The notes under the pieces: generated by a model
Database searches by the model: none
What the model saw: only the letters and a program-made list of their open reading frames with translations
What the model was told of the DNA's origin: nothing
NCBI GenBank assembly: GCA_900618425.1
Contig: UZAN01039453.1
Span: forward strand, 11,452 to 75,451
Direction: 5' to 3'
Length of the DNA: 64,000 nt
Source of the DNA: Echinostoma caproni
Taxonomy: Eukaryota > Platyhelminthes > Trematoda > Plagiorchiida > Echinostomatidae
Position numbers and translations under genes: made by a program
Shown: positions 556-43,745 of the stretch, piece after piece
Layout: each line of letters begins with the position of its first letter
Position numbering within the stretch: the stretch's first letter is position 1

Positions 556-740
556 AGGTAACGACCCTCAACCGTGTAGTTCAAAGGTAAGAGTTAGAGG
601 TCCCGACCTGAATGTTTGCGGTTCGATCCCTGACAGGAACATAAAACGCACGCACTATTGACAAGTACCAAAAACAAGACACAAGAGCTGTCCATTGCTC
701 TTTGTCGGTCATCACAAAGACTTCCGCGCGTGAATCTCTT
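556..740 (+). mobile_element. tRNA-derived SINE with hammerhead remnant, copy E
   Basis: The head resembles a tRNA gene. A pol III A-box-like TAGTTCAAAGG lies at 577-587 and a perfect B box GGTTCGATCCC at 620-630. The body (652-698) aligns with the hammerhead region of the other four copies: stem I strand GCACTA, degraded core TTGACAA (from CTGANGA), a stem II segment, then GAGCTGTC and CATTGC. The tail CTCTTTGTCGG at 698-708 is shared with the copies at 7.2 and 25.3 kb. The ribozyme core is broken at C3, at G8 and in the GAAA segment, so this copy should not self-cleave. A short minus-strand open frame across it is a shadow, not a gene. Confidence 0.75.
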
Positions 741-3700
741 GGAAATAAGTTGTTGGCAATAAAGCATTCCGCCTGCTGAATTAATATACTAGCCAACTTT
801 TATTACAAGTGCAATATAACCTAGGATATTCATTTGATAACTTCTACTTAAAATTGCGTGTAAGATAGATAACAGGTTCAGCACACCATTACCTGTGTAA
901 TACCATTAAAGTAACATCGTGAGATAAACACAACCAAGCGCCGAATACATTACAAATTGTTAGTAATCAATATTTATACTATAGTAAATAATTTATGGTG
1001 GCAGCTACCAATAAAGTAAAGACCACTTGGATAGATGTCTTCCCCGTGAATCCACCAGCATTAGTCATTGCACCTGCAAATTCGTTCCAAGAGATATACG
1101 ATAAAACGTTGTTTTGATGTTTCTCTTTCGCGTGCAGTCTTTTACAGTCAACTGTTATTGGCAGATAGGTTTACTTCAACCCTGTTTAGGTCAAGTAAGT
1201 ATTGGCAAACACAAAGCAGGTCAAAACGTTGCACTGTCTTCAGAATGTTAAAACTTGCAGTACAGCTTGTAATCCATAATGTTGCTGGGATAATAAAACA
1301 TGCTTTCCTGTTTGATTTTCTATCATATTTGGAATCGCTGAAATCACAAATGATTATTGAAAATATTTTTAAGCCATGTTTGAATGTTTACCCTAAAACA
1401 TTTGCTGGATGTGTCCATAAACAGACCGATACAACATTAGAAACAGGCTTATTCTAATGTTCTAATGTTCTAATTGTTCTAATATTCTAATCAGAAAATA
1501 AGTTGTGCAAAACATGGAACAATTTCTAACCAATGCAATTTTTTGAACATAAAGGGGGATTTGCACGTCAGATGTCTTATTGTTTTGACTTTCTCAACAC
1601 CACATAGCGGTCTTAAGACATCGGCATAATTCAACATATCGACAAGGCGATCGATAATGAATTTATCAGGGGAGCGTAATGGTGACAGAATAGCGACACC
1701 AATCGGCGAATTTGATACATCACCAGAATAAGGTTGTGTTATTTCAGCGAAATGCGCTTCTATCTAGCAAAGATATCGTTTGATGGAGGAAAATGAGCAG
1801 TTATTTTAGAGTGACTGCTCAATGTACATTTGCAAAGTTGATATATTTAAGAAACAATGCCGGTTCGACCAGCGAGCACGTTGCAATTGACTATTCCAAC
1901 GGTTTTTCAAACATGTACATTAAGCATGTAGTATTAGTAGTAATATTGGTAGTTGGACATCGAAGCATGTCCCTAAACGCAAGTGTTAAGAGCCTAAGAA
2001 GTAGTATAGTGACTGATGCATTTCCTTTTCCAGAATTCATTCATCAGCAGTCTGAGTAAAATAATCAGCAAGGAAATTTAAACGATAGAGTATAGTTTTT
2101 TTGATTGCAGTATACATATAAATATGTATACATCCGATTATCCTCTAAGAATACACATCAGGATATAAAGATACAAATTTTAAGAGCTAATATGACCGTA
2201 GTTACAGAATTAATTTGCTCAAATTTATAGTGATAGTTATAGTTATGACAACCACATGGATAGAGGTAGCGATAAATGTCAAACTGGATTGCAGTCGATT
2301 GACAACAAAAATAAAAACGTCCAAATAGCCTCATGGTGTATATTTTACATAAAGCAAGGGATGGCAAACAGGTTCATTTTTAGCGATTCACAACCAGGGT
2401 AATATATCGCAATTGAACGACAGAGGAAAATTCAAATCACGAGTTACTGGGACTAATTCCATACCAGTACCGGATCTGAAAAATGTTACAGAACACTGTA
2501 ATGCCTCCTTTAACTCTTTCAGTTTGATGAGAAGTACGAATCAATTACTGAGCTGACTGTTGCTTCATCTGAATTCTGAGTTTACTCGAAAAATTATGTG
2601 CGAGTCAAACCAGAGCCTAGTCGTGTGTGCACAAACTCTATGGTCACACAGGTTGCAAAGACCAGCTATTATTGCCTTCGCTGCAGCTAGCAAACGACAC
2701 TGAACGTCTTCCAAAGCTCTATCTGGGAAAAATACAGGGGATGGAAAGCTTCCGTCGAATTTCTAGTGTGATTTTTGTCAGTCCAGTGTAAAAGAACTTC
2801 ACTGGTAAATGAACTAATCAATCGAGTATGGTGATATTCCAGAATCCGGACTAGCTGCCAACCATACGGCCTATTTTCAGTATTCCACCGAAACTAGTGT
2901 ATGAGGTGTTAGAATCAGATATTTAGTTCTAAACCACAAAACCACGTAGATGTTGGCTACCTAGAAGGTTATAACGATGCCTTAGGATAGACTTCTTCAC
3001 ATGAATCCATCTGGTGTCTCCTCTTCGTGTGACCAAATCAACGTGCATAATAATTCCATGGACGGTTTCTTTTGAAATGGTCTCCGTATAAGAAATCGCT
3101 TCGTCTAAAAAGCATTCGGATTATCTGGTGTGTGCAAATACAATTCCAAACAACGTCGAATCTTCTCTCGCTTCCGCATTGAAGTTCTTCCTTTCCTCGT
3201 GGTGTAAATCCTTTGAAATGACTGCATAGATAGCCTTGGTATCATCGGTATTTTTTCTGAAATACAAAGAAAAAATTCGAAATTCTTCGTCACAATTTGT
3301 TGATTATCAGTCGTGTATCCTTTATACCCATTGATGATCTACCTAAAATCCCATGTAAACTACACTTGTCCACATAGGAAACAGTTGCATAGAATATCCT
3401 CTCTGACCCTATTTATCCTTAGCACGGCGATCTATCCGAAAGCCGTTCTCACTCATCCGCACGCTCTACATATCGTTTATTAACCTCTCGCATCAACTTC
3501 TTCAGAAATGTTGTGTAATTATTGACTGAAATGCGCACATTATTCTAAGCCAAAGTCTATGCAAATACAAAAAACAAACACAAAGTGCTAATGAAACTCA
3601 TGATCTAACTTACATTTGACATTTCATAAAACTCATATTTTTCCTTCAATTATTTTAGTAATACATTAAGTAGGGTGATGGTACATGATTTGAAAGTAAT

Positions 3701-6700
3701 TATAATTCGGTTAAATGGCAGTTATAATCCTTAATTCAATGCTTACAAGTTTCAGAAATGTTTTACAGTATGCTATGGCTCTCCAATATTGTCGAAGGTT
3801 TCCGTCAGGAACCCGAAGACGAAATTAAGTATGGTCGCGGGTCGCCCGTTTTCAAACACCGGGAAAGAAAAGCATAGTTGAGTATTTGCATCATACATCC
3901 GGGAGACAACACAAAGATACCTAAACCTTAAATCTATAGCTTTTATCAGTATATAATGGGCATTTCTCTGCTATCATATTGTAAATGAATGGATATGTGT
4001 AGGACAACAGTGAATTGACAAGTAAGTTATTGCAAGCATCCCCAAACTACAGTCGTATTTTATTTAATCTGTCTTAAATCATTCATGATTTTATCTCTTC
4101 AATTTATCAAACAGCCTTTGGATTTTTTTAACTAATTGATACATCATAGCATATTTTTGATGACATCGTACCTCACCCAACGTCCCACAAACTCACACCA
4201 CGTAGTGTTGCTCATATTCAAACATTACGTTTTCTTGAGTTAATTTATTCTTTATATTATAGAAATTATTACCTCATTTGCATAACTATTTCAAACCTCA
4301 AAATCGCTTTGACTGGCGGCTGTGTAATTCAGTAAACAGGTTGCATGATGTATAGAATACATTCATTTACGGAATTGTAACAATAGGTCATACAATGTGA
4401 ACATTGGGTTGGTTCACTTTTTAAGATGGCAGTTGAATAATGTGAAAAGTAAGTGAGCAACAGTCAATGCACATCCCTCCGTAAAACCCGTGATGTCAGT
4501 AGTATCGGCCTCAATTAAGTCTGCATATTTACTGAAGTTGTTCGTAATAATGTGGTCTGAGAATATCACTGTTGCAAACGAGGATAGTACCTGAATTAAT
4601 TGTGTGGCATATACCGGTTATAAGCACCACACCGCATTAAGATACTGTTTGCGAAATCTTGCCATATCCAAACGTTGATCATAAACATGATTGGCTCAAT
4701 ATTTTGGAGAAAATCTCCGGTGGGATTCAGACAGAAACCTGATCAGCATTATTTTGAAATGGAATGAAATTCATGATTAACCATTTGTGTAATACGCTGT
4801 TCAGATCCGATTCAATACACAAGTAAGCAAATAAAAAAGATAAAAAGATAGCAAAACAACAGTCCTATTGTATTTTATGAAAATTGTAGCGAAATAACTG
4901 CAACGATGAGTAAAGATGTTGAACACATTTAAGCATTTAGTGTTCTGCTCTAAGGCACACAGATTTTCGCTAGAATGCTAAAAACAAACAACAACCAAAT
5001 TGAGACACGTGAAGTGATTTTGGTTGTCCTTTGCTTCTTGATGTTACTGTTTCTGTGTTGTTTAGAAACAGTTGCAAAATCTAATTGCACTCCTAATTAC
5101 TTATGAGTGTTGCAACTCAGTTAGTATAACCATTCCATTTTGTAGCAACTCCTCGTTGATGCACAGCCATCAGCTAGGCTGAACACTATCAGAAAAGATG
5201 AAAACTGAGTTTTTCTCATTAAAGTTCACCAATATTGTTATTCCATCCACTTACGCAGTATTTGAATATCCAGACCCTTGGCATGATATGTTTGTGTGTT
5301 TTCGTTGTATCTATCAGTTTTACCGGGATCACAGCAATCTTCGTATCGAACAAGGTGTATTGGGTTGTTGAAAGTGAGTGAGAAACAGACCTTGGTCTTG
5401 AAACATGAATAAACATCTTCAGTTTTTGTGTAAATCGTTGATCGAATTTGGGCTTTCCCGAAAAATATCCTAAGACATCTCAAATGATTTCAATTTAATT
5501 CAAATATGCAAAAGGTTGAATTTTGAAGGAGTTATTAAATTTGTTTTAGTTGCCACGACGATTGGTACTCAACTCAAATAACGTTTTTCACCAGTTAATT
5601 CAGAATAACTTATGCTTCCTCAGGCATACAACAATTCAGAGCTTTGCACCTTATCTGTCAAAAGTGATTATACCTCAGACAAATTTAGGCAGGATAAAAT
5701 CATTAGATTATAAACAGTGTGACAAGTTGAGCCAGCAGAGGAAATTGCTGCATTTTTCTCGGTCTGAGATCGGAAATCGCTCATGTTGCAACAGATAATA
5801 CGACCCGAGAAACTCAACTTGTCATATGAGGATGCCTTGTGCATTGGAATTTTGAGACAAATTTGGATGATAGTGTGCAATTTGCCACATGTGGTTCAAA
5901 TTCTGTTTCCTTTCTGCAGTGCAACGATGCCTTCAGGCAAAGTGCTTCAAAATTGAACTAATTGTCGCCTCTTGTCGATTTCCAGGTTCTAACTTTGTTA
6001 CCTATGGCAGTTACGAACTACTTTTTGGACGCTATTGAAAATCGTCTGAGCATAGGAATTTCCACACTGCCGGTGACACGCGCACTGTGCGCGCTTTCGT
6101 GGTTGTTGCCTGCCAAAAGGGGCCCACAAAAGGGAGCACAGTAATATGACGGAAGGGCTGATAAATGTGCTCAATAACCCTCAGCACTCAGTTGCATTGT
6201 ACGGTATTGCATGCGTGTAAATCGCCAGGTAGCAAGAAAAGTTTTCTTTCTTGAAGAATCAGGTCTAGATCGTCGAGATAGATGAAGTACTGCAAATTTG
6301 ATTGTAAAATAACAGAGTACCTGAGAACAAGAATAGTGTCTTAAGCCACCGGAGGGGTGCGTGATCGAATGGAAGTAAGATGAATCTATTAGTGTATAAC
6401 ACATAAGGTGAATGAAATTATACAAATCTTTTATTGCGAACAGGTCCACTTCACAAGCGGCAGTTGTACCAGAATCCAACGGGGGGCGATTGACGCAATC
6501 AACGGTTATGTCCTGCAAGCACAAGTGTACTTCCGTTGCCCAGCAGCCAGTGATCGGTGTAGTAGAGTATTTGGAACAACGTGCGCATCACGTTGGAGTG
6601 AAGCTTTGTCCAGTTAGAATGGACACTTGATTGGTTAACGAGAACGTTTTTCGATGACTTCATCTGATGATGTTACTCTAAGTACTGGGGTTTGAATCCC

Positions 6701-6928
6701 GACAACACTATTCAGCTTTCGTGGCTGGAAGCATTACCTCAGTCCGGCTCAGCAGTAAACCTACACTGGAAGGGTCCTATATGGTTCACCATTAAAAGTT
6801 ACCGCTTATCATGAATCAACGGTGTGATGACCTTTTCTGCAGTTTTTGTTTCGCAAAGGGTATGGAATGCTATTTAAAATAAGGATGTCATCACAATTTA
6901 CTCCTCTATACATTACTCATTTGAACTC
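741..6928. other. Unassigned intergenic or intronic DNA
   Basis: No gene is identified with confidence. A short tandem repeat sits at 1450-1492. A frame opening at 5550 follows a good acceptor-like run (TTTGTTTTAG) but has only a weak donor, so it is not called. Small GC-richer patches at about 3790-3870 and 6060-6140 carry no recognisable protein. A B-box-like GGTTTGAATCC at about 6690 is isolated and not called. Confidence 0.5.
1450..1492. repeat. Short imperfect tandem repeat, unit about GTTCTAAT
   Basis: About five imperfect copies of an 8-bp unit (ATTCTAAT, GTTCTAAT, GTTCTAAT, TGTTCTAAT, ATTCTAAT) follow one another. This is a simple repeat with no indicated function. Confidence 0.85.
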
Positions 6929-7168
6929 ATGCAGTTACCGGGCCAAAATCTAATCTTGGGAAAGAATCTTGTGTCATTTATCTCTCATTATTTATTGCCC
7001 GTATTGTGTTCTACTCCACTATTTTTATACGTATTCCATGGTTGTCATCTGTTGCTGCGTTACCTAATTCCCTTCTATCTGGAATTTCCTAACGGACTCG
7101 GAATTCAGTTAATCCAAACGGAATTAAATACAATATTTCATTTTCTTTATGTCAGATATTGTTTATAA
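6929..7168 (+). CDS. Possible small hydrophobic ORF
   Basis: A 79-residue frame starts at a true ATG and is strongly hydrophobic in its middle third (roughly residues 13-50), which could form one or two membrane segments. It resembles no family I recognise. The length is within chance expectation for this composition and it may simply be AT-rich noise. It could also be read as an exon, since CATGCAG just inside the frame looks like a splice acceptor. Treat it as a weak candidate only. Confidence 0.12.
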   Translation: MQLPGQNLILGKNLVSFISHYLLPVLCSTPLFLYVFHGCHLLLRYLIPFYLEFPNGLGIQLIQTELNTIFHFLYVRYCL

Positions 7169-7204
7169 ATTGGTGTAATATAAATGCAATTGAAATGTTT
7201 GTGT

Positions 7205-7375
7205 TAACGAACGAAGAGCACTGGACAGCTGTTTCGTCTTGGTTGGGACTCGTTAGCGATGCATAACTTTTGTCTCCCTGTCAGGGCTTGAACTGCAACG
7301 TTTCGGTCTGGGACTTCCAACCCTTACTCTTCATCTGAATGGTCGACGGTTATCACCTTGTACGAATGGTTCAAT
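7205..7375 (-). mobile_element. tRNA-derived SINE with hammerhead motif, copy D
   Basis: On the minus strand the head (about 7375-7284) aligns with the tRNA-like head of copy E and ends in a B-box-like AGTTCAAGCCC. The hammerhead region is 7262-7218: stem I GCATCG, core CTAACGA (CTGANGA with G5 changed to A), a stem II segment with a GTC/GAC 3-bp pairing, intact GAAA, the mini stem III CAGCTGTC, then CAGTGC. Only the G5 substitution and stem I mismatches separate it from a catalytic consensus. The tail after the ribozyme (GCTCTTCGTTCGTT) matches copies C and E. Confidence 0.75.
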
Positions 7376-7709
7376 CAATTTAGATGATGTGCAATATAAT
7401 TTATAGGAATCCAGAGAGTGAATAAAATGTCCAAGAAATAACATTAAACTAAAAATGTCACCAGGGCAAATGAACTACAAACGAGTGTATCCATTCCATC
7501 AAATCACGTGGATACATATCCAATGAATCATTTATTCATGAACTTCCCTAACACATTTACAAATAAAATAACACTTAGGACTGAAAATTGGGAAAAATAT
7601 TTTTTCCGAAGTTGTATTGCATAAAGGGAATAGTAAAGTGATGTTGCATAGTCCGTATTAAGTTGGATCTCGCTGCATCTAAGTAGGTGCATCCTATAAG
7701 CAATAGGGT

Positions 7710-7800
7710 TACAAATACGTAGGATGGCTACCGGGTTCTCCGAACTAGAAGGAATGGTTGCAACCGTTTTGTAGCCAGGCTATGCAACACCATCAGCTTA
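7710..7800. repeat. Dispersed repeat X, copy 1
   Basis: A 65-bp block (7735-7799) matches 57102-57166 at roughly 70 percent by eye. Shared anchors are GTTCTCCGA, CTAGAAG and GCTATGCAA. A related CAAACGTTT-containing block may occur near 40937. This type of GCAAACGTTT sequence occurs around non-coding ends of retroelements, but I cannot name the parent element. Confidence 0.5.
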
Positions 7801-9156: not shown

Positions 9157-9205
9157 GATCAAGTCAAGTCAAATCAAGGAATGGCTTTGTTCACCTAGAG
9201 AGGTG
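9157..9205 (-). repeat. LINE 3' hairpin and CTTGA tail
   Basis: On the minus strand CACCT-loop-AGGTG (9205-9192) is followed by AACAAAGCCATTCCTTG and then TTGACTTGACTTGA (to about 9157). The LINE at 20.5 kb ends in the same way, at 21423-21468. In CR1-type elements such a structured 3' end plus short tandem repeat is used by the reverse transcriptase for target-primed reverse transcription. That role is inferred here. Confidence 0.75.
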
Positions 9206-12820: not shown

Positions 12821-12821
12821 T

Positions 12822-12838: not shown

Positions 12839-12848
12839 CTACTGAACA

Positions 12849-13376
12849 ATGAATTCTACTCCACTAGAATCCCTGGATCTTAACTGCAGTGCACGCGATA
12901 TCGAGGATTATTTTGACCGTTTTGAGATTTGATGGTTGATTCGTTCAAAGTCCGACGAGGAAAACAAATCCGCTTTCTTTTTGGATGCTGGCGGTAAAAA
13001 TGTTTACACACTGATCAAAAACTTGACTTTCCCTTCTCTACCTGTTTTTTACCATATGAGGATTTAAAATCCCTCATTCTACAGCATGTGAAGCCAACGA
13101 ACTTTGGAGCTTCGAAAAGGGTAAACGTTTATTCAATGACAGCGTAAATACTGTTTTGCAAAATGGTTTTCTAAAGCTACCCAATCCTACGTTCAATGAT
13201 GTGCAGGCCCATTGTGATTAATATCAGGACATTCCAGATTCACATGTTGATTTCATTATGCTTCATTTCAGAAGTGTGGCAAAACTGGCCATATTCAATC
13301 TATGTCGCAGTACCAAAACTTGTCGTTTAATTTAATCCAACGACACAGAAGTGAGTGACATGGACAATCATTTTTC
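12849..13376 (+). pseudogene. gag remnant with degenerate zinc knuckle
   Basis: An ATG at 12849 opens a frame (MNSTPLESLDLNC...) that stops after about 27 codons. Similar reading continues in shifted frames (EENKSAFFLDAGG, about 12955-13000). Near 13268-13308 the frame reads QKCGKTGHIQSM, a CCHC zinc-knuckle remnant. Its first cysteine is replaced by phenylalanine, and the last is lost through an apparent one-base frameshift (TGTCGC lies in the next frame). Gag would package element RNA. This copy cannot make it. Confidence 0.7.
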
Positions 13377-14607
13377 TTGTTTATCTTTGACAAAACCCCC
13401 TTTTCCGATTACATTCGTGAACAACTATTCAGTTCTACTGGTAACTCGCTTCGTTTCATTTTGGACAGTGGTAGTATGGAGTCTCTAATTTCTGTTCATT
13501 ATTTAAAACGGTTTACTCCAGAGGCTAAACTCCAGCCGTCCACTTTCACCATAAATGACATCACTGGACACCCATTACTTGCTGTTGTTTTTTGTGAGAT
13601 TTCAGTCAGTGATGAACATTCTAAAAGTGCTATCTGCACATTCATCGTAACCAAGTCTGGCCCCTCCATACTAGTCTTGAAAGCTATGCAAGCATTAAAT
13701 ACCAATGTTTCTTTGTTAATCTCCATCGATACTGAAAATGAGCTGAAAGATTTGATTATTAGATGCTCAAAGGCCAGTGGTGGCAAGAAAACTCCCCCGG
13801 TGAAATTACCAATTAATGGCGATCCGGTTTTTATGAAACGCCGAGTTATTACACATGGCCTTCGTGAATCTGTCACTAATGTATTGAACAACTTGTGTTC
13901 CAAAGATGTTATAGAGAAGCTGGCTTCTTTAGCATGGGGTACATCAATCGTCACACCACTCAAGTCGGATAGCAAGACCAGCAGAATATGCGGCGACTAC
14001 CGAATCACCTTAAATCTAAGGCTGTCAAAGTATACATGTACAACAGTTGAACCAGAGGACATTCTGAATAAGTTGACTGATTTGACGGTCTTTTCTAAGA
14101 ATGACTTGAAAGATGCTTATTTACAAATTCCGTTGGACGAAACCTCATCCAACTTGACCCTTATTAATACCCTTTTGGGTCTATACAGATAAAAAATTTT
14201 CCCGTTTGGTTTATCCATTTCTCCTACCGTATTCCAACAAGTTACGAATGACATTATTAGTGGTATGTCTGGTGTTGAAGTATATCAAGGTGACATTATT
14301 GTTCATGCTCCTGAAAAGTTCACTCAAGAGGAACGATTGCTTGAACTCTTTTGTAGGTTTTCTGATAAGAATGTTGCTGTTAATCCTCAGAAATGTTTAT
14401 TTCCTGTCTCTCATTTTGAATGTCTTGGATACTTAGTTGATGGTAAAGGATAAAAACCTGACCCGAACCGTCTATTTTCTCTAACAAAAGCCAAATCACC
14501 ATCGAACATACACGAACTCAAATCACTGATTGGAACCCTACAGTATTACTCTAGATTTATCCCTAATTTGTCAGAAAGCTTCACCTCTATTTCTACTCTC
14601 ATGTTCT
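13377..14607 (+). pseudogene. Protease and reverse transcriptase region of the gypsy pol
   Basis: The longest clean frame of the window (271 codons) starts here. FILDSGS at residues 27-33 is the retropepsin active site, with D30 encoded at 13464. Reverse transcriptase follows: DVIEKLASLAWGTSIVTPLK (about residues 178-197), a GDYRITLN box, and FSKNDLKDAYLQIPL with the first catalytic aspartate. A TAA at 14190-14192 interrupts, then the same frame resumes with FPFGLSISPTVFQQ and the catalytic box. That box reads YQGD (14283-14294) instead of YxDD, so a catalytic aspartate is lost. A second TAA lies at 14451, and the frame then continues through the IGTLQYYSRFIPN connection until 14607. The minus-strand frame at 13499-13975 is its antisense shadow. 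Confidence 0.88.
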
Positions 14608-18512: not shown

Positions 18513-19349
18513 AGGTCAAGAACATCTTGGCCAGTGACCTGCACAATTCCGTTAGTGATTATCTTTCAGCATATGCACCGTTGCGACAGTGGGGTGGCCG
18601 TTTTCCATCGCCTGGCAACCTAACATCGTACCCAACCCTCCTTACAAGTGATTGTTGTTCACTTGTTCGCACAGCTGCGTTCGNNNNNNNNNNNNNNNNN
18701 NNNNNNNNNNNNNNNNNNNNNNNNNNNNNNNNNNNNNNNNNNNNNNNNNNNNNNNNNNNNNNNNNNNNNNNNNNNNNNNNNNNNNNNNNNNNNNNNNNNN
18801 NNNNNNNNNNNNNNNNNNNNNNNNNNNNNNNNNNNNNNNNNNNNNNNNNNNNNNNNNNNNNNNNNNNNNNNNNNNNNNNNNNNNNNNNNNNNNNNNNNNN
18901 NNNNNNNNNNNNNNNNNNNNNNNNNNNNNNNNNNNNNNNNNNNNNNNNNNNNNNNNNNNNNNNNNNNNNNNNNNNNNNNNNNNNNNNNNNNNNNNNNNNN
19001 NNNNNNNNNNNNNNNNNNNNNNNNNNNNNNNNNNNNNNNNNNNNNNNNNNNNNNNNNNNNNNNNNNNNNNNNNNNNNNNNNNNNNNNNNNNNNNNNNNNN
19101 NNNNNNNNNNNNNNNNNNNNNNNNNNNNNNNNNNNNNNNNNNNNNNNNNNNNNNNNNNNNNNNNNNNNNNNNNNNNNNNNNNNNNNNNNNNNNNNNNNNN
19201 NNNNNNNNNNNNNNNNNNNNNNNNNNNNNNNNNNNNNNNNNNNNNNNNNNNNNNNNNNNNNNNNNNNNNNNNNNNNNACAAGTGATTGTTGTTCACTTGT
19301 TCGCACAGCTGCGTTCGTGCGACAGAGCCCATGGATCAACTGAATTTCA
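18513..19349 (+). CDS. Candidate host exon split by a probably spurious scaffold gap
   Basis: After a TAG at about 18509-18511 and acceptor-like AG sites, a frame opens (about 68 codons once the gap is discounted) and runs to the left gap edge at 18683. The sequence right of the gap (19278 onward) begins with an exact repeat of the last 40 bases before it. If the two copies are the same DNA, the frame runs on in phase for about ten more codons (FVRQSPWIN) to TGA at about 19341. The product is rich in serine, tyrosine and proline (VSDYLSAYAPLRQWGGRFP). I recognise no family. Confidence is limited by length. Confidence 0.25.
18684..19277. other. Scaffold gap (594 N) flanked by a 40-bp exact duplication
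   Basis: Bases 18644-18683 and 19278-19317 are identical (ACAAGTGATTGTTG...GCTGCGTTCG). Contig ends that overlap but were not merged produce this pattern, so the N-run probably contains no real sequence. Confidence 0.85.
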
Positions 19350-20529
19350 TTCCCCTCAACGAAACTGATCTTATGGTCACAAACATAGACGTGGTTTTGG
19401 TGACCACAGCAAAATTTAAGTGACCACGAAAATTGAATGAAACAATTATTGGCGGAATCCGGCGTTGCATCTGAGCTGGCCAATGCCCGATTGCCACGTA
19501 TGTGGTTGGTTTGGGTTTTCATGGGTGATAAATAGCAGACGATTGACTACTTGATAGACTCCTCGACTAAAAGCGAGACAAACTGAAATGATACGTGAAC
19601 GTTTCAGTAAGATGCCATAGAAACTTGGTTGGCCAAAGATAAAAGACTTTTCTTTAATCCACATGTTACGTGCGAGCTGTTGGTAAATTTAAGAGTCGGT
19701 CGAGTTGGATGCTGGCGTCATCTGGTTTTGCGATATTATCCAGGATATCAGTGTTGAACTATAACAATATTGCCTGTTTTCGGGGATGAATCAACAGATT
19801 TTCGGAAATCAAATAACCACCTCAGTTTTTGAGGTACTCCTATGTGCTTAAAACTTGAACCGCACAGTGGATTAGATAGGTTCATCTCCCTTTGTGTATG
19901 AGGGATTCATGATGAGTAAGAGGCAACGTTTAGGTACTCAGAATAGCACAACATCGGGATTAGGGGAATCACAGTCAGAAAACGATGACCAGTGTCGCTC
20001 CAAAGTGCTATTACCTACACCAGGAACATAAACTCCTTGGGAAACATCCTTATCTTCATACTGACACACTCCTGCACTTCGGTATATGAACAGTGTGATT
20101 CGGGAAACGCCTGGCCAAGATGTGAATAATGAGATTAGCCATGCCTGCTTATTTCGTTTATTGCGCTTTTGGTTGTATCCAAACACAAATAAGCACAAAT
20201 TGGGCTCTTGGTTCATTTGTTTCTGCAATAAGCTGTAACTCCTCCAAACGGTATGATTTCCATTTCAGCCACACAGTAGGTTAATACATAAGAATAAATG
20301 GGCATTTGGCTCGATTACTTAGTTATATCGTCGTGTATAGACCAAATAAAGCTTGAAATGAAACGCCGGTAGATACCGCCATACTGTTTTGACCTGTAGG
20401 GATCTCATCATCCGCAATGAAACCCAATCGTTCTAAGTCAGGCTGGAACAAAATGAAGAGCGATCTGATCAGCAGTTTGATGGCCAATTTTTCTAGCATG
20501 CTTCTTTTATGTATATACAAAATCTCACC
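19350..20529. other. Unassigned DNA
   Basis: No gene recognised. Open frames on the minus strand (19446-19664, 19938-20228) lack any motif or splice support. Confidence 0.5.
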
Positions 20530-25190: not shown

Positions 25191-25244
25191 GGATTCAGGC
25201 GACTCTATTCAAAGGAACATTTACATTAGATGGAAATGTTTATG

Positions 25245-25400
25245 ACAACCGACAAGGAGCGCTGGACAGCTGTTTTACTCTGTTTGGGACTCGTCAGCAG
25301 TGCGTATCTTTTGTGGTTCTGTCTGGACTTGAACCCACCCTCAATAACATTAAGAGTATCTGGTGCCCCTTAACAATCGAATGGGTTAATCCAAACTGGC
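25245..25400 (-). mobile_element. tRNA-derived SINE with hammerhead motif, copy C
   Basis: On the minus strand a B box GGTTCAAGTCC (25335-25325) precedes the hammerhead region 25303-25259: stem I GCACTG, core CTGACGA (an allowed CUGANGA form), a stem II segment, AAAA in place of GAAA, the mini stem III CAGCTGTC, then CAGCGC. Stem I pairs at five of six positions. The loss of G12 (CGAAA to TAAAA, a CpG-decay type change) should kill cleavage. The tail CTCCTTGTCGGTTGTC matches copy E. The tRNA-like head above 25340 is poorly conserved and its A box is not clear. Confidence 0.75.
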
Positions 25401-26544
25401 TACTGTAGTTAAAGAAGTTTCAACATTCAAGTAATTTAATCAATTACATATAAGCGAATGATGGCAGTTGATTACTCAAATACCTTTTACGTTAAAATTA
25501 TATTGATCATCAGTTCAAGAAAAGTATTGTTTATATACCGTGTTGTCAGTTAAGAAGATCTTTGCTGGTGGAACATGAACTCTCAGATATCTTGTTTAAA
25601 TCAGACTATTTAGTGCTAGCTCTTTCGAGAAAAAAGATTACTTATTTCACAGTGAAACTTGAAACGCAACTTGGAATGAATGCAGTAGACGTTTTTAATG
25701 TGGATCAATGAAATACCAAACGTATATTCTTGAACACAAAACCCAGTTCGCATCGGAGATGGAGCGGTGAGAAAAGTCTGATGGTTGGCTTTATGAACCC
25801 TATATACTGAGAACCCTATTGAAGTTCGGTTTTCCAGGCGAAGTGGTACACGTACGAATGCACAAAAGGAATTTTTAATGAGAATTCCCAATCACATCGC
25901 ATCCCGAGCGCGTCTGAGAAGAAACGAGAAATGCGAACGCCAAGTTTGCTGAAAAATGTGCCACCTACTTCTGTTTATGCTGGATGAGCAAAGGAAAAAT
26001 GTATTACAGATAATGTTGGTGTGAAACTGGACTTGGTTTGAGTCGATGAAATGCGGCCTGGAATTCATCATAAAAAGACCATCTACCGTCGGAAACAAAT
26101 GAAAAATCTGGACATTTTCATCAATCATATTATTTCGCTGAAGTTCCCAGTAATTGTTATTACAAATCTCTGAAAATAAAAGAAGGCAAAAGAACGAAAC
26201 AAAATGGGAATTATGCCACGAACCCGGATGGTGAGACATACTAATTTTGATTTAGATCTTTCACCATATCGTTCGCCATCGATACACAAAGTTATAAAGC
26301 TCTTTGAATCGTCTGACTTGTGTGGGTTTATCAAATCTAGGGCTACTATTCCGCATTTTCTATCATGAACCGGAAAAAACGCAGGCTAGTGGGCTAATCG
26401 GTAAATCTTAGCTGAGGTTTACTGTCCATTCCCAATCGGTCTGAATTCGATCTATATTTCCGACAATTACGTTATCTTTGTTCTTTTCAAAATTCACTTG
26501 ATGACGTGTGTAGCATATGCATAATCCAAAATGCGAAACGGTCC
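25401..26544. other. Unassigned DNA
   Basis: No gene or known repeat recognised. Minus-strand frames at 25616-26334 have no domain or splice support. Confidence 0.5.
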
Positions 26545-26745
26545 CATCAGCTGCCCGGTGGTCGAGTGGGTACTATGCTTGCGTTCGACATATGAGGTGC
26601 TGGGTTTGATCCCCAATTGGGTAGATGGATTCGCATTGCTGATGAGAACCAACCAGGTCGAACCAGCTATCCAATATGTGCTTCTTAGCTTACATCACAC
26701 CTCATTAACAAGACTAATTCATCATACGCACAAATTCCCAGTGTA
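26545..26745 (+). mobile_element. tRNA-derived SINE with hammerhead motif, copy A (best tRNA head)
   Basis: The head GCCCGGTGGTCGAGTGGGT contains an A box (TGGTCGAGTGG, 26559-26569). A B box GGTTTGATCCC follows at 26603-26613, a spacing typical of tRNA genes. The hammerhead region starts at 26633: stem I GCATTG, a perfect core CTGATGA (26639-26645), stem II GAACCAACCAGGTC with ACC/GGT pairing possible, GAAC in place of GAAA, then CAGCTATC. The closing stem I strand is disrupted (CAATATGTGC). The tail CTTCTTAGCTTACATCACAC is shared with the copy at 43.7 kb. It is a retroposed pol III unit and not a gene. The overlapping 71-codon frame is chance. Confidence 0.8.
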
Positions 26746-29600: not shown

Positions 29601-30032
29601 NNNNNNNNNNNNNNNNNNNNNNNNNNNNNNNNNNNNNNNNNNNNNNNNNNNNNNNNNNNNNNNNNNNNNNNNNNNNNNNNNNNNNNNNNNNNNNNNNNNN
29701 NNNNNNNNNNNNNNNNNNNNNNNNNNNNNNNNNNNNNNNNNNNNNNNNNNNNNNNNNNNNNNNNNNNNNNNNNNNNNNNNNNNNNNNNNNNNNNNNNNNN
29801 NNNNNNNNNNNNNNNNNNNNNNNNNNNNNNNNNNNNNNNNNNNNNNNNNNNNNNNNNNNNNNNNNNNNNNNNNNNNNNNNNNNNNNNNNNNNNNNNNNNN
29901 NNNNNNNNNNNNNNNNNNNNNNNNNNNNNNNNNNNNNNNNNNNNNNNNNNNNNNNNNNNNNNNNNNNNNNNNNNNNNNNNNNNNNNNNNNNNNNNNNNNN
30001 NNNNNNNNNNNNNNNNNNNNNNNNNNNNNNNN
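29601..30032. other. Scaffold gap (432 N)
   Basis: Run of N. The flanks do not repeat each other, so the missing sequence may be real. Confidence 0.99.
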
Positions 30033-30177: not shown

Positions 30178-31757
30178 TTCTTTTATTACACAAAGTAAAT
30201 TACAGTAAACGGGGAAATCCCCATGAGCAAATAGCATACTATAGGGAGAGAGTAAGGGTATGTTCACGTAAGGTCCAGTTTATTCATTCTGCGTTTAATA
30301 AGTGTAAGAGTGTAAGTTGCGGAGAAAACAACAAGGGGGAGGGTGTTCCACGGTTTGGGAGTTCAGGGAAGAAAGAAGATTGGATTGGAGAGGTACGACA
30401 TCTGAGAACAGAAACCTGATAAGGATGCCTAGATGACTGTGTACGGGATGGACGAGTAAAAGTTGAAGGAAGAGGAACTGGCGAGGCAAATTCCGAAGAA
30501 CAAAAACCAAAGTAGTAACGGTAGAACAGGGGCAACGAAGCAACTGCCGGGCGATTGGCTAGCGACTGTAGACTGGATGTTAGGGAAGAATCATTGATTG
30601 GCCGGATGGAAGAAGGGAAAGGGAAGAAGACGAAGCCCCTCCCCACAGGTGACTACAGTATTCGAGAGCAGGGTGAATTTGAGCTTTGTACAGTAGAAGA
30701 TGAGCTGGGGTGAAAAAAAGTCCGGCACGAAATAGAAATCTAACCTTGCGCGCAATACGAGAATCAAGCTTAGCTATAAAAGGGGACCAGCGTAAAGAAG
30801 AAGTTATAGGTATTCCAGAAGGGAAACAGAGTCTATCGAACGCAGTTGGGTGGAAACAAAACCTAATTGAGGGGAGAACGAATGATGTTTTAGAGAAATT
30901 GAAAGAAGAGGTGTTTTAGAACTATTGAACGAAACCTGGTTTGCAATGCCCCAGGAGGATATGTGTTCGGGATCTGAGTCCAGTGACATATTACTGTGCT
31001 ACGGTCACCATCGATGTTGGTTTGGGCACGGCGAGTAGTGCTTTTAGGAGAGGGAGCAGTGGAGGGTGGCGTCATCAGCAAAAGAATGGATGGGGTTAGT
31101 AGTTTGGTAAAGGAGATCACTGATAAATAGAAGGAAGAGGGTGGGTGGAAGTACTGAACCTTGGGGAACACCAGCGATCACAGGGAATGGCTGAGATAGA
31201 ACCCCATCAACTCGGACGTAGATGGTTTGCTTACTAAGGAAACTTGATAAACACGCTACGAGCGCTGGAGCGAACCTGAACATGGGTAGTTTCGCCAGCA
31301 GACCATGGTGACAAACTCAGTCGTAGGCCTTTGAGATGTCAAGCGAGACCAAGTGTGTTTCACCGTGGTTATCGAGTGGAGCTGACCAGGGTTGAGAGAC
31401 AAGAGCCAGAAGATCACCGGTGGAGCGAAGCGGTCGAAAGCCATACTGGTGGTCGCTCATTAATTCTTCGCGTTCAAGGAACATGCGTAGCTGGTCAGAA
31501 ATAATAGATTCAAATACTTTCGGAAAAACAGATGTGAGGGAAATGGGTCGATAGTTGTTGGGGTTAGAAAGTTGGCCACATTTGGGAATGGGAAAACTCA
31601 CGGCGTGTTTCCAGGGGATTGGAAAGGAAGAAAGTTGGAGGGAAACACGGAAAAGACGACGTAAAACAGGGGCCAGCTCGGGAACACACATTTTGAGGAC
31701 GATGGGTGGCATACCGTCCGGACCGAGTGGTTTGTTTGCGTTTGGAGAGCACAATGT
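30178..31757 (-). mobile_element. Jockey-type LINE, 5' truncated, ends in AATAAA-containing 3' UTR
   Basis: On the minus strand the element starts inside reverse transcriptase at 31757 (NKPLGPDGMPPIVLK). It runs through the SPF..NYRPISLTSVFPKVFE and DHQYGFRPLRSTGDLLA motifs, the GVPQGSVLPPTLFLLFISD box and FADDATLH (about 31070), then a C-terminal region to about 30283, which includes FYRYYFGFCSSE and HPYQVSVLRCRT. The 3' UTR ends near 30180 with AATAAAAGAAATT. The truncated 5' end abuts a PLE fragment of opposite orientation at 31758. Stops and frameshifts are moderate, and the catalytic FADD is intact. It is distinct in sequence from the CR1-like copies at 9-12 and 20-21 kb. Confidence 0.85.
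31044..31754 (-). pseudogene. LINE reverse transcriptase domain (jockey-like)
   Basis: Two frames cover the polymerase, 31754-31317 (145 codons) and 31283-31044 (79 codons). The break lies just after the first catalytic aspartate region, LVSLDISKAYD followed by a stop. The first frame carries GPDG, the RPIS box and the GFR..ST box. The second carries GVPQGSVLPPTLF and the catalytic FADD. All catalytic aspartates remain, but the frame break separates them, so no intact enzyme is made from this copy. Sequence features such as STGDLLA...VSLDISKAYDRV resemble jockey-clade LINEs common in arthropods. I cannot rank relatives without a search. Confidence 0.85.
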
Positions 31758-31975
31758 TTGGCGGGTGTCTCACACCTGGCTGAAATGAATCACACTGCAA
31801 ATTTGACTAAGGCATGCCGATCGCTGTATAGGGTTTGCTTTCGGCAATCAATGCAAGTTCACTATCGAATGCTTGCCACAGCGGAATCAGAGGGAATTCA
31901 TCTACATAGCCCTCCTTTGTGTAATGGAAAACATATTTGTAGACACTTGGGCTTCTCTTGCACACCGCATGCTCA
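31758..31975 (+). mobile_element. Penelope-like element, C-terminal fragment 3
   Basis: The plus-strand frame reads VSHLAEMNHTANL, then SLYRVCFRQ, MLATAESEGIHLHSPPLC and HLGF. These match the PLE ORF at 62 kb (AHLAETGHLIDM, IIYRVSPHP, KLATAEAISIRLMKPELC) in order. It is a short degenerate end with no catalytic part, starting exactly where the LINE ends. Confidence 0.6.

Positions 31976-34883: not shown

Positions 34884-34886
<3 letters not shown>

Positions 34887-34925
<39 letters not shown>
34887..34925. repeat. (AT)n microsatellite
   Basis: About 39 bases of uninterrupted AT repeat. Confidence 0.97.
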
Positions 34926-34928
<3 letters not shown>

Positions 34929-35996: not shown

Positions 35997-36032
35997 ATAT
36001 ATATATATATAAACATATATATATGTATATAT
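35997..36032. repeat. Imperfect (AT)n microsatellite
   Basis: ATAT repeat interrupted by AAAC and TG. Confidence 0.9.
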
Positions 36033-39000: not shown

Positions 39001-39475
39001 CAAACTCACAGGGCTATATTTTTAAAAGATCGCAGTGTTACACCGATGACGTCCACGTAGCCACATTCCGCCGGTAATCTTTCCGTTCACCAGATAACAC
39101 ATAACGCATTTGACCAGAATTATTGCGGAATAACTTGAACAACCACCAACCCCATGCGTTTTATACCGGATTTTCTTCTACACAAAAAAGTGTAAACTCC
39201 ACATCCAGGATTACATATTATGGGTAAACACTGACGTAGTAAAGGAGGAAATAGGTCCCGGAATAATTAGACAGAGAGCATGTAGATCAAAAGGAGTTTA
39301 AAGGTGAGTAGATTTCGGAGAGCCACTTTTAGAACACGGTAATATATTATTAAATGTTTCCAGATACCACTTGAGATCCTCAGCTAGATTTCCTTAGGTG
39401 GGGCTTAATAACCGCGACCGATGGTTATATATTGATAACGGGACATGGTCAACTAACTCCTGGTGTTTCATCTAG

Positions 39476-39870
39476 TTACTGTTTACGGAGAGAAAACCAA
39501 TCATACCCGTGAGGAACATTTATCTCCAATACGCTCATATAGACGAAATACGTCCAAAAATATTTTCATTCCAGAAACTGATCTAAATTTGCCACAGATC
39601 GGGGGCAATATCAATCCTATAATGAAAAAGGTACATAAGCACTATTTCATCACAGTTTCTGGATGGCTTTGAAAGTAAATATATTTAATGATTCTGGTCT
39701 TGCAATATTTGAAAGCGCTCCCTTTCCCGGCGCAGATGAAAACAATTTCATTTAATTACATAACTCATTCAATATTAGATAAACATGAGTATAACGGGGA
39801 GAAATTTATGTACAGGAAAAAGATCGTATCTTCATTGGTTTCAAGATCAGATAATCTGAGAACGCCAAAC
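39476..39870 (+). CDS. Candidate two-exon host gene segment, unknown protein
   Basis: Exon a, 39476-39630, follows GGTGTTTCATCTAG and ends AAAAAG before GTACAT. Exon b, 39736-39870, follows CGCTCCCTTTCCCGGCGCAG and ends before GTAAGG. Exon a is open from its first base (2 nt of a split codon) and ends in phase 0. Exon b is open only in phase 0, so they join in frame over a 105-bp intron. Residues include FIPETDLNLPQIGGNINP and HEYNGEKFMYRKKIVSSLVS. A strong donor (AAAG before GTGAGTAG at 39304) upstream leaves one base, also compatible with exon a. No family recognised. Single-exon openness is not significant; the support is three consistent splice phases. Confidence 0.33.
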
Positions 39871-40067
39871 GTAAGGTCGTTTTAATGTCATTCCAGCCAC
39901 AAAACAGTGTGTCGGGTTCGAACACATTTTGTGCACCTTCTGATAAAATCGGTGTCCGGAATACGAATGACATTGTTTGCGCACTTGAGGTACCGTGTGT
40001 GTTCGTGTGTCTGGTTGAGTGATGTGTCTCGCGTTGCCGAGCAGTGTGCAGCGTGCGATGTGTGTAT

Positions 40068-40776
40068 TCAACCCGGAGCATGCAGTTCCAAAGAGTCGGT
40101 GCACTGTTCGCATGATTCGACAAAAGATGCTTGTTCTTCAGAACGCAAATCATTGTTTAAGCACAGCGTGCCCAAACGTGAACACGGTCTGTCCGTTTTG
40201 CGTTGAAAGTGTCTCGGGCTAGATTTCGAATGCATTTCCAGTTCATGATGCAACAGACGATGCGGAACGATTGAACGAATGGTTGCGGAAGAAGAGGATG
40301 TTAAACTTTTGGCAGTCAGTTTTTGGCTACCTCGAGCAGCAGTGTGAATCGCAGATGCTGGAATCATATGACATGAGCACAAACCATCGGTCGGTGTGTG
40401 TAGCGATTCCGTAGTTGGATCTGTATCATTGTCCAATTTTATCAGGTCGCATAAATGGTTCGGTAGCTGATGACCTGAATGTCTCGAACGGGATGTTTGA
40501 CAACTGTCCGGACCATTTAATCGCCATTTCTCAAAATGTTTACTGTAGTAGTACCTTGTAGCAAGCCACGTGACTGTAATGCAAATTGTTATACCGATTC
40601 CGGTGAGCCAGAGGAAAATCCATTGATCGAATTTGAATGAAAACGTGGCGGAATGATCTGCCGTTTGGCTTAGAACCACATTTGTCCCGGTGATAGTTTC
40701 AGTTTCACTAGGAGGAGTCAAAGTTGTGCGGTGGATCTTAGGGATATCTGAACGTTGGGAATGATCACCAAAAGGG
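40068..40776 (-). CDS. Exon of a single-pass membrane protein, C-terminal part
   Basis: A minus-strand frame of about 235 codons is open from a TAA near 40778 to its stop at 40068-40070, far longer than expected by chance here. A serine/threonine-rich segment (TPPSETETITG) leads to one clear membrane span (WIFLWLTGIGITICITVTWL, followed by ATRYYYSK), then about 160 residues rich in serine, histidine and arginine, ending LELHAPG. The layout suggests a type I membrane protein with a cytoplasmic tail. The start is not an initiator ATG; an acceptor such as ATATCCCTAAG near 40732 is likely, with earlier exons at higher coordinates. No family recognised. Plus-strand frames over 39907-40222 are antisense to it. 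Confidence 0.5.
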
Positions 40777-40814
40777 GCTTATTAAGGATTGGATCAATTG
40801 TCATGATATATATA

Positions 40815-40920
40815 TAGGTGTTGAGCAAACTCATGCAACATCGTTCTCACTTTGAAAATGCATTTCACTTTCCAAAATTATATCTGTATATATTTGGCTA
40901 TAGGTAAAATGATACATTCC
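40815..40920 (+). repeat. Solo copy of the transposon-end repeat
   Basis: TAGGTGTTGAGCAAACTCATGCAACATC (written here as 40815-40842, preceded by TA) matches the 28-bp ends at 49301 and 51037. Homology to the inner side of the 51037 end continues for about 100 bp (TTTGAAA, CATTTCA, ATATAT, ATTCC anchors). It is probably the remnant of one end of the same element family. Confidence 0.6.
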
Positions 40921-42612
40921 GCCTGTTCATCGAGTTTGGCAAATTGTTTGCAAACGTTTCGGCTGGTGGGTATGTCCGTGGTGGAAGATCTAGTTTTATG
41001 TAACCGATAGCGGCACTGGAAAGCGTCGACCAGTGAACCGGCACGCCGGTCATTTTCCTGTGGATGCCATGGCGTTTGGTCTCAGTGCAATACAATATGA
41101 TTTTATCAGTTGTATTCTCATGAAAGCAGATGGATAGAAAAAGAGCCTAATTTCGTTGAAGCTCTTTTATCACTAGGGATATGTGGGCTTTATATCGTGT
41201 CTCCTCTATCCAATTGAGAGAACGTTGGTAAAAAGTCCTCCAGAGATTGATTTTATGATCTTCATGGTGGCCAGAGGTATTGCCTCTCAACAGTCTAGAA
41301 TTGTTTGTTTTTTACTTTGTTTAATGAGAAGGCAATAAAATGAGAGAACTCTTTGTGCTAACCTCCACGGTCACAATCTCGCGATAAGACAATTGAGCGC
41401 TTTTTGAAATACACGACCACATATACACGGAAGGCTTGCACGATTAGAGAGGGATTGCATCATCATGACCAAGAATGGAACATAACGTGGTTCACTTTAC
41501 ACAATGTGGTAGGGGTAAGCGCCTTTCGAGTTCACGTACGCATATTTGCAGACTGTATCATCGACAACGAAATGGTTTTGCTCCATGGTCTTATTAATAA
41601 ACTCATGAATGCATATTCACTCCAACATGTTTGAAGCAGACAACCAATTTGTGTGTTGTATGGCAGCCCTCTGATTGGCCGCTTCCCCCTTCCTGAAAAA
41701 TTGTATCTTTGTATACTCAATAAAAAAGAAGCAAATGAAAAAAGAAAATCAGACTAGTGGTTTATCAGACAACCGGTCAGGAATCCATGGAATCGGTATT
41801 TTGAGTTACTCTGCCCCCCCCCACACACAAACAAACATTTGTGCGTTTGCCTGCTGCACATACATTCGTCGGTCTGTACCATCTAGGGTACGATGGCCGC
41901 AGGTACACCGTTCATCGACTGTTGTTCAAGAAAGTTCAAAAGCTTGCCTTCTCTGAGCAATGGCCGGATCCTTCAGATTGCTCAGCAGAATTCTGTATAT
42001 CGACTTTTAAAAACGTTTTACATTTAGACCAAGAATTGCCATGTGTGACCGACAGGCACTTGTAAAGCTAAATTGCTTCCCAACAATTCCAAGACAAGAT
42101 CATTGCTGGTAAGGTTGAATGATAGTCCCCTAGTTCGAGCGCCATACGCCGCTTTGAACTAAAAAAGGCTTTCAGTGGTTAAATGAATATGCGAGAGTTG
42201 CCGGGCTAAGTTGTGAACGGAGAGCTGGGGTTTGAAGATATAAGTATTTTCATATTATTACTCAACTCCTCCGTAGTAACTGCTTTCTTCTCTGTCCCAT
42301 TTGTTTTTCTGTCAATCGATTTGGTTTATGGTAAACGCTCTTTGCATTTTTTTCGCAGTTCAATCGATGTGATCTTCGCTTCGTCGGGAACAAGACGTCT
42401 GAATTATCGTCACATATTTCCCGAAAACTCAGACATCACACTTTCAGCCAGACCAAATGATTTTTTATCGTCTGTTAAATCCATCTTGTAATGATTGTCA
42501 ACGGTAACTTATTTTTCACAAGTAGCGAAAGGTTAACACAAAGTGACTGGTTTTCCCCACTAAAAAACGCTTACAAGCAATTCCGGGTTGTGTGTGGACG
42601 AGCTTGTGAGTT
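40921..42612. other. Unassigned DNA with weak exon candidates
   Basis: Candidates not called as genes: a frame through 41886-42065 (SEQWPDPSDCSAEFC) that competes with another open frame, and a frame at 42359-42491 behind a very good acceptor (CATTTTTTTCGCAG) that ends in TAA. Either could be a terminal exon. Confidence 0.4.
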
Positions 42613-43286
42613 GTGACCACCCACTGCCATTCGACACAGTTCCCGTCCGATAAACGTGCAACTGAACGACAACTGAAAATTCCACTCCACAGTATGTTTC
42701 CGTCCTGGAGAATCGTTTGGTCTGATAGAATATCATTGAAGCGGGAAACTAGAGCTGTTTGTCGACATGCGACACACGAGCAGGAGAATGTCACTAACGG
42801 GCAGCGGTGAGTGTAACCTTAACCGGAACGACCAAAATTCATAACATAAGGTGCTCTGTTAACCATTGTTATGGAGCTAGTCTAAATTCACACATGTTAC
42901 CTGTCTAAAAATGAGAACTAGTTATTGGTCCCAATATCCACTGAGAACTTTATTCCTTAGGTTACCCAGTTGAATTTTCCCTCGGTTGCCATGATTTCTT
43001 CAACCTGAGACAGTGTGAATGAACAGCACATCCGTATTGATTGCATTGGCTAAACAACTTATGATTGTTCGGACTGTGTATTGTTTCCAGTGTAATTAAC
43101 GATACGAACCAGGTGGGAACCATCCATCCGTCGGCCACTGGAGAATACCTATTAAGTTCATATCTTACAAATATTTTGATGATAGAAAGCGATCGATATT
43201 TTGAAGATATTTTCTCCTATAATAAGTGCATAACTGAGGTTCCTCTTTTTCCAACTAACATTACGTCAGTGCAGATGTTTATGTGA
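42613..43286 (+). CDS. Candidate two-exon host gene, unknown protein
   Basis: Exon 1 ends at 42807 with CAGCG before GTGAGT, a consensus donor. It is open from 42613 and has an in-frame ATG at 42691 (MFPSWRIVWSDRISLKRE). Exon 2 starts at 43091 after GTATTGTTTCCAG, a consensus acceptor, and is open for 65 codons to TGA at 43284-43286 (INDTNQVGTIHPSATGEYLL, then MIESDRYFEDIF). Exon 1 leaves two bases and exon 2 supplies one, so the join over the 283-bp intron is in frame and creates an arginine codon. The true first exon may be upstream, since TTGTGAG just before 42613 could be an acceptor. No family recognised. The minus-strand frame at 42516-42794 is antisense. Confidence 0.38.
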
Positions 43287-43639
43287 TCTGACAAACACTG
43301 ACTTTTGTTTACCAAAACAAATCAGTTCAAGCTCCGGAGCTTCCTCTATCTGTCGTCGAATAAGTCACTTGGTAACTGTTATCGATTAAAGTTAGCACTG
43401 TACTTAAATACATTTATAGTACTGGCTAATTGTAATACACTAAAATCGTTTCTTTATGATCAACTGAGGTTGCATTATATTTATCATCTAGAAACACCCA
43501 ACAAGGCGTCTTATTATTATTTAAAAACAAACTAATTCATTATAAATGCCTATACTAACCAATAAGAGGTTCACAGGGACCCATTGCTTCAGTTTCGATT
43601 AGGCCTGGGTCATCACCTCATTTTCTTTTAGGTAATCCC

Positions 43640-43745
43640 CCAGATGGGCCGATGGATTCGCACTGTTGATGAGATCCAACCAAGTCGAAACGGCTGTCCA
43701 GTGCTTATTAGATTTTCAGTTCACGCTTCATTTGTCATATACACG
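43640..43745 (+). mobile_element. SINE hammerhead module, copy B (best ribozyme fold)
   Basis: The tRNA-like head is lost or unrecognisable, but the ribozyme region 43660-43704 is nearly intact. Stem I GCACTG (43660-43665) pairs perfectly with CAGTGC (43699-43704). The core reads TTGATGA (43666-43672), with only C3 changed to T. Stem II segment GATCCAACCAAGTC has three pairs, GAAA (43687-43690) is intact, and CGGCTGTC carries a two-pair stem III and the cleavage-site TC. The tail CTTATTAG...TTCACGCTTCAT matches copy A. The C3 substitution is expected to abolish cleavage. Confidence 0.75.

Follow-up and report, generated by a model that had tools for sequence, protein, structure and literature searches.

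The locus considered here is a stretch of 64,000 nucleotides from the trematode Echinostoma caproni (contig UZAN01039453.1, positions 11,452 to 75,451; this whole stretch is called the window below). It raises the question of what kind of element carries the hammerhead-like motif present in five repeats scattered along it (copies 1-5), and how such elements came to be inserted. The five copies are real hammerhead-bearing repeats, the hammerhead being a putative self-cleaving RNA; they represent a known kind of element met in another fluke, with several details of its first description corrected below. The new part, and the part worth following, is a head-to-head, two-ended architecture, and this double structure hints at the insertion mode of the repeats.

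Hammerhead Ribozymes in the Window and in the Genome

An earlier note on this DNA had attributed the same order of hammerhead parts to all five copies and had proposed a covariance scan as a check. The order is present, and with the Rfam model of the type I hammerhead (RF00163, cut-off 34 bits) three of the five copies score above the cut-off, copy 4 falls below it, and copy 1 has no match even at E ≤ 5 when its own stretch (540-760) is scanned. The intact core (CTGANGA, GAAA and UH) is found in none of the five window copies. The motifs are the following:

652..698, plus strand: decayed hammerhead of copy 1, located by alignment, with a 2-nt insertion and a broken core; 54.6 bits with the model built from the five copies, no Rfam match
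7218..7262, minus strand: hammerhead of copy 2, with one core change; Rfam 35.1 bits
25259..25303, minus strand: hammerhead of copy 3; Rfam 34.5 bits
26633..26677, plus strand: hammerhead of copy 4; Rfam 21.4 bits, below threshold
43660..43704, plus strand: hammerhead of copy 5; Rfam 36.5 bits

A covariance model built from the five copies recovers all of them at 54.6-66.7 bits, as it must by construction, and the next match scores 12.2 bits. With at most one core mismatch, a descriptor finds two sites in the window, against a shuffle mean of 0.08 (largest 1); with two core mismatches allowed it finds two, against a mean of 0.69 (largest 4; 100 shuffles in each case). A looser descriptor recovers three of the five copies together with one unrelated site in the window. 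With the Rfam consensus row added to the five copies, covariation of the kind expected of a type I hammerhead is seen, both sides having changed in 6 of 12 pairs, a level reached by 1 of 500 shuffles; this result depends largely on that single added row. The five copies alone give a weak signal, with 2 of 11 pairs changed and 215 of 500 shuffles reaching as many.

In the genome (426.5 Mb in 12,689 contigs), a first look returned 66,429 type I hammerhead candidates. Of these, 74 were scored, and all 74 exceed the cut-off (37.1-60.6 bits). The 14 control genomes were all negative for the type I hammerhead, and viral contigs gave no hits in a pattern search. The loci sampled for the analyses below (L numbers) are the 74 scored ones, 30 of the 41 listed matches to copy 2 and 30 of the 43 listed matches to copy 4. 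They were chosen for hammerhead quality or for similarity to one copy, and they include the window's own copies (L009, L105); a few places were sampled twice, and duplicates were taken out wherever "distinct" is stated. Of 133 matches in L001-L100, the core is present in 90, and six stem I pairs accompany it in 49; intact hammerhead cores are common in the genome.

Two Families and Their Consensus Units

The five copies had been regarded as a single family. They form two, B (copies 1-3) and A (copies 4 and 5), whose common part is essentially just the ribozyme of about 47 nt: when each unit is mapped on the loci of the other family, the match is limited to a segment of 35-68 nt at the ribozyme, if a few incidental copies are disregarded. 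Since the families share only this segment, the hammerhead itself may be the part that selection maintains. The copies in the window, including two that were absent from the first list or are mere fragments, are as follows (T1 and T2 are the two kinds of outer end defined in the next section):

513..725, plus strand: copy 1, family B, 78% identical to the B unit, from its position 299 past the unit boundary to position 188
7178..7389, minus strand: copy 2, family B, 84% identity; at its 5' end it includes about 10 nt from the 3' end of the unit before
25218..25407, arms on both strands: copy 3, family B, a head-to-head composite with a minus arm (25218-25335) and a plus arm (25325-25407), outer ends T1 and T2, and an inner junction at unit 85/236
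25325..25407, plus strand: inverted 3'-end arm of copy 3, 79.5% identity to unit b positions 236-318
26523..26691, plus strand: copy 4, family A, 85.7% identity to the A consensus
43638..43766, plus strand: copy 5, family A, 5'-truncated and lacking A and B boxes; unit 185-312, 89%
20287..20503, arms on both strands: extra decayed family A copy, head-to-head, absent from the first list (E 0.0016); 20287-20410 minus and 20450-20503 plus, 39 nt between the arms, which show 68% and 72% identity
48844..48877, minus strand: family A tail fragment, with 22/22 bases the same as in the tail of copy 5

The fragment at 48844 is flanked by a 10 bp duplication (P 0.007, one of seven tests); the flank duplications of the other single copies in the window are not significant.

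In both families the unit combines tRNA-type promoter boxes, the hammerhead and a tail. The B consensus unit is 321 bp long, with an A box at 42, a B box at 85, the hammerhead at 117-161 and the end CTAAA (a B subtype has the end GCTTGATACTCTAAA); cleavage would be expected after position 155. Its ribozyme reads GCACTG-CTGACGA-GTCCCAAACAGGAC-GAAACAGCTGTC-CAGTGC. The A consensus is about 366 bp long, including a 21-nt linker, with the hammerhead at 207. Both were derived from selected copies, and both restore the core and stem I, the test named beforehand as able to refute the hammerhead assignment. Stem II of the consensus differs on both sides between the families (GUCC/GGAC vs GACC/GGUC), and stem I shows paired changes at 5 of 6 pairs relative to the Rfam consensus. 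Thus far the earlier description stands: these are dispersed repeats in which RNA polymerase III (pol III)-type boxes are coupled with a type I hammerhead whose stem III has two pairs, and their genome consensus is intact.

The term "minimal" hammerhead holds for stem III and may or may not hold for stem I. An extended stem I has no support in the B flanks typed first, 46% of shuffles being equally stable; in the later genome consensus, the enforced fold has an outer helix and an internal loop, and the unconstrained fold is better. At about 256-261 of the B unit, CAGTGC, the 3' strand of stem I, is repeated about 100 nt 3' of the ribozyme, where it could compete for pairing.

Head-to-Head Composites with Two Fixed Ends

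Two recurrent outer ends were recognized in family B, namely T1, at unit position ~188-210 (...CATCGCA), and T2, the CTAAA end. In 63 of 104 family B loci, arms no more than 40 nt apart face each other head-to-head; a direct pair was found once, and tail-to-tail (convergent) pairs are absent from all 104 loci. There are 60 distinct composites, 12 of which are cut by the fetched stretch; the other 48 comprise 38 with T1 and T2 ends, two with T1 at both ends and eight with an unrecognized end. A more sensitive remapping gave 66 distinct composites, copy 3 included, and again none that was convergent. From the side of the single arms, the 79 distinct T1 arms include 55 in composites, 10 accompanied by a short T2-like motif (a motif set found by chance in 7.5% of stretches) and two at the stretch edge; of 62 T2 arms, 46 are in composites, 13 have no second end and three lie at the edge.

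Target duplications enclose part of these composites. In the 38 T1/T2 cases the longest exact flank match averages 7.8 bases, vs 4.9 for mismatched flanks, and a match of at least 8 occurs in 19 of 38, vs 2.8% of mismatched pairs, so that duplications of 8-13 bp enclose the whole composite in half of the tested B cases. In family A, 16 of 29 loci (arms no more than 60 nt apart) and the window copy at 20287-20503 are head-to-head, 17 in all, with no convergent pair; for the seven T1/T2 composites among them the target duplications measure 8.6 vs 4.5.

The pairs might be read as separate insertions, if the elements preferred sites beside the 5' end of an older, oppositely oriented copy. The families are abundant, second insertions do occur nearby (e.g., L010), and half of the T1/T2 composites lack a clear common target duplication. 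However, the arms mostly abut within a few bases, a single duplication encloses both of them in the other half, and the outer ends differ between the arms, with no convergent and only one direct pair; this explanation is therefore quite improbable.

Promoter Boxes and the tRNA-Like Head

A tRNA-like head had been claimed for all five copies. Convincing boxes are confined to copies 1 and 4; those of copy 2 have decayed, and copies 3 and 5 lack them. Only copies 1 and 4 combine an exact A box with a B box of at most one mismatch (40 shuffles gave a mean of 0.075). A and B boxes with pol III spacing, as in tRNA-derived short interspersed elements (SINEs), are present in these two copies and in both consensus sequences:

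577..587, plus strand: A box of copy 1, exact consensus
620..630, plus strand: B box of copy 1, exact consensus
26559..26569, plus strand: A box of copy 4, exact consensus
26603..26613, plus strand: B box of copy 4, one mismatch

A recognizable tRNA structure was found neither in the window, where ARAGORN reports no tRNA, nor in copies 1 and 4, scanned with the Rfam tRNA model at E ≤ 5. Copy 5 begins near 43638, past the head, and what was taken for a head in copy 3 (25325-25407) is the element's own 3' end, present as an inverted arm. A second B-family head, like that of copy 3, had been assumed from arms ending at unit 81-93; many of these proved to be inverted end arms (read in copy 3, L051, L056, L074, L081, L096, L100 and others), and the candidate was dropped. 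Some of the ends at 81-93 adjoin plain flank.

At 6632-6699 (plus strand), an A box and a B box with one mismatch each occur without a hammerhead, perhaps as another tRNA-type head; chance alone would give roughly one such pair.

Template and Mode of Insertion

The idea that one intact copy would yield a unit-length RNA is not supported: a single copy holds one hammerhead, which cuts once; its transcript would therefore be cut into two fragments, and a unit-length RNA needs tandem units or a circle. Multi-unit direct copies do occur in the genome (L017, L019, L033), but they are copies other than these five.

The arms themselves carry information on the template. Among T1 arms of at least 80 nt, 23 of 47 cross the unit boundary (321/1) and two of 47 exceed one unit in the hammerhead-chosen loci; in the loci similar to copy 2, which are biased to long arms, the figures are 21 of 24 and 5 of 24. 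T2 arms of at least 80 nt exceed one unit in 6/25 and 1/11 cases, and among all segments 20 distinct ones surpass the unit length, the longest measuring 546 nt. Moreover, CTAAA lies directly 5' of 35 of 42 exact TTGATTGAGCC unit starts (duplicates not removed). Judging from these junctions, a linear monomer cannot yield boundary-crossing arms unless the reverse transcriptase switches from one RNA to another; such arms could come either from a multimer or from a circle traversed more than once. A one-unit length limit, considered as a mark of a circle, was withdrawn in view of the T2 arms and the 20 longer segments. A cleavage footprint, i.e., arms ending at 155/156, was likewise set aside; there is a loose excess at 151-165, but the arms ending at 151-152 hold bases past the cut.

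These data bear on whether the repeats are ordinary tRNA-derived SINEs, that is, linear pol III RNAs retroposed by a long interspersed element (LINE), with the hammerhead as a passenger and the pairs produced by L1-like twin priming. The A and B boxes of copies 1 and 4 and of both consensus sequences would suit this explanation, as would the target duplications, and Sm-alpha is called SINE-like (PMC2770079). Against it, nearly half of the T1 arms in the hammerhead-chosen set continue beyond the unit start into the 3' end of the preceding unit. A pol III transcript is expected to start downstream of a point 41 nt before the A box, where the conserved B unit begins, and the sampled loci do not show the pattern of linear monomer copies with their 5' end at the pol III start. 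Twin priming usually uses varied sites, and here 38 of the 48 fully seen B composites have their second outer end at a fixed position. An ordinary SINE origin is accordingly unlikely.

Alternatively, satellite-like tandem arrays could be the active form, the dispersed copies being debris generated at the DNA level by recombination or extrachromosomal circles. The multi-unit direct copies, and the fact that metazoan hammerhead repeats are often tandem (PMC7229834), would be in line with this; the fixed ends, the 5'-variable arms and the target duplications are instead marks of target-primed reverse transcription, although no search for long arrays was made. This is the least probable of the explanations weighed here.

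On the whole, the sequences probably represent two families of non-autonomous retroposons of the Sm-alpha/non-LTR (long terminal repeat) retrozyme kind, whose RNA, circular or multimeric and possibly processed by the ribozyme, would be reverse-transcribed from two target-primed sites, a reading that we hold with moderate confidence. Transcripts of multi-unit copies would be cut by their own hammerheads and possibly ligated into circles. The reverse transcriptase of another element, of LINE or Penelope type, would then use this RNA as its template on both nicked strands of the target. Priming would take place at ...CTAAA (T2) from one strand and at ...CATCGCA with a TAAA-like stretch after it (T1) from the other, and the resulting cDNA arms would be joined head-to-head. 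The narrower proposal of a stereotyped insertion, in which a single RNA circle made by the ribozyme offers two fixed TAAA-type sites for priming by both nicked strands, is possible, though doubtful.

Several observations weigh against these proposals. Nineteen of the 38 T1/T2 composites have no exact flank match of at least 8, and 12 of the 79 distinct T1 arms have no second end. Family A ends are looser, only 7 of 17 composites being T1/T2 and several copies stopping near 276-280. Three arms end at unit 151-152, 4-5 nt beyond the cleavage site, and none exactly there, and the enforced hammerhead fold lies 5.9-9.6 kcal/mol above the minimum-energy fold. Twin priming of the ordinary kind on a tandem transcript may take the place of two-site priming. 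Furthermore, the composite counts come from selected loci (best hammerheads or best similarity). Because the longer incidental copies in the other family's loci are head-to-head in one of two cases (B) and one of four (A), and the window copies in two of six (copies 1-5 and 20287), the composite rate among unselected, older copies looks lower than that of the selected set.

If two-ended priming on a circle is true, circular RNA templates would have left a lasting structural trace in the genome, in both families. According to a 2020 review (PMC7761336), the repeats of ribozyme retroposons have no conserved motif indicating the element responsible for priming and mobilization. The opposed fixed ends, the target duplications and the boundary-crossing arms offer a testable handle on a circular or multimeric template and on two priming sites, and the fixed ends also provide a way to seek a partner element with the same ends.

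Two further features of the B arms were recorded. Arm ends cluster in the B box/T-loop (unit 82-93), where 12 of 116 positions hold 9 of the 22 ends (P 2e-4 in a post hoc test); the cluster may mark stalling of the reverse transcriptase in the tRNA-like part. Segment 5' ends are also frequent near unit 251-280, perhaps partly owing to the poorer alignment of that region.

Comparison with Known Hammerhead Retroposons

Among the closest systems by description are the Sm-alpha and Sj-alpha repeats. They are classed as SINE-like retroposons, and >38,000 and >5,000 matches to the hammerhead are given for two schistosome genomes (PMC2770079); A and B boxes also accompany single hammerheads located in introns of SmPoMuc genes (PMC2576457). 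The likeness lies in the A and B boxes, the type I hammerhead and the thousands of dispersed copies (PMC2770079, PMC2576457). For this reason, scattering as single copies, which had been presented as a contrast to Sm-alpha, does not separate the two, Sm-alpha being likewise dispersed (same sources).

At the level of the ribozyme, stem II and loop of family B (GUCCCAAACAGGAC) match the RF00163 consensus (GUCCCAAAUAGGAC) except at 1 of 14 positions, whereas stem I is GCACUG/CAGUGC here and aUccag/cuggAu in that consensus, which we take to mirror Sm-alpha.

The metazoan non-LTR retrozymes also have a type I hammerhead; a circular RNA template has been modelled for them, help from LINE or Penelope elements has been proposed, and it has been stated in review that they could count as a novel SINE family (PMC7229834, PMC7761336). 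They resemble the present repeats in their units of a few hundred nucleotides, type I hammerhead, target duplications of >4 bp and lack of a coding region (PMC7229834, PMC7761336). The units described here, of 321 and ~366 bp, agree with the retrozyme definition in size (150-450 bp), type I hammerhead, absence of LTRs and duplications of >4 bp, and putatively in the lack of a coding region that this definition includes. In contrast, the retrozyme texts stress tandem repeats and report no motif pointing to the mobilizing element (PMC7229834, PMC7761336).

The hammerhead-bearing W-elements of S. mansoni share minimal hammerheads with a very short stem III, and one of their families is Sm-alpha-like; they differ in being satellite families of the W chromosome, some with autosomal copies (PMC8490949). 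Penelope-like elements with minimal hammerheads are similar in their type I hammerhead and tandem copies (cited in PMC7229834). Their link to the present repeats is one of likeness by description. Inverted 5'-truncated copies next to a full copy are known in Penelope-like elements.

Two-fixed-end head-to-head composites of Sm-alpha or Sj-alpha were not found in the available parts of PMC2770079 and PMC2576457, and the words "inverted", "head-to-head" and "twin" do not occur in the available text of PMC7229834. More generally, no description of head-to-head composites of hammerhead retroposons was found in the literature searched, where inversions were aimed at only once and which largely excludes subscription papers, among them the primary Sm-alpha, Sj-alpha and Penelope-hammerhead reports.

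Other Features of the Window

A Penelope-type remnant lies at 61959-62501 (minus strand), with a weak GIY-YIG match under the Pfam cut-off and 67% to an E. caproni GIY-YIG protein; it is a possible partner retroelement. An open reading frame (ORF) fragment of a reverse transcriptase at 13359-14192 (plus strand) is 74% identical to an E. caproni protein, below which entries from Schistosoma, Paragonimus and Trichobilharzia are ranked, and a reverse-transcriptase ORF fragment of a retrotransposon occurs at 31317-31769 (minus strand). The ORF at 40068-40778 has no homologue at E ≤ 0.001. Runs of N occupy 18684-19277, 29601-30032 and 49948-50903. Two pairs of direct repeats are also present, 12650-12823/15471-15644 (87% identity) and 54304-54441/55702-55839 (93% identity).

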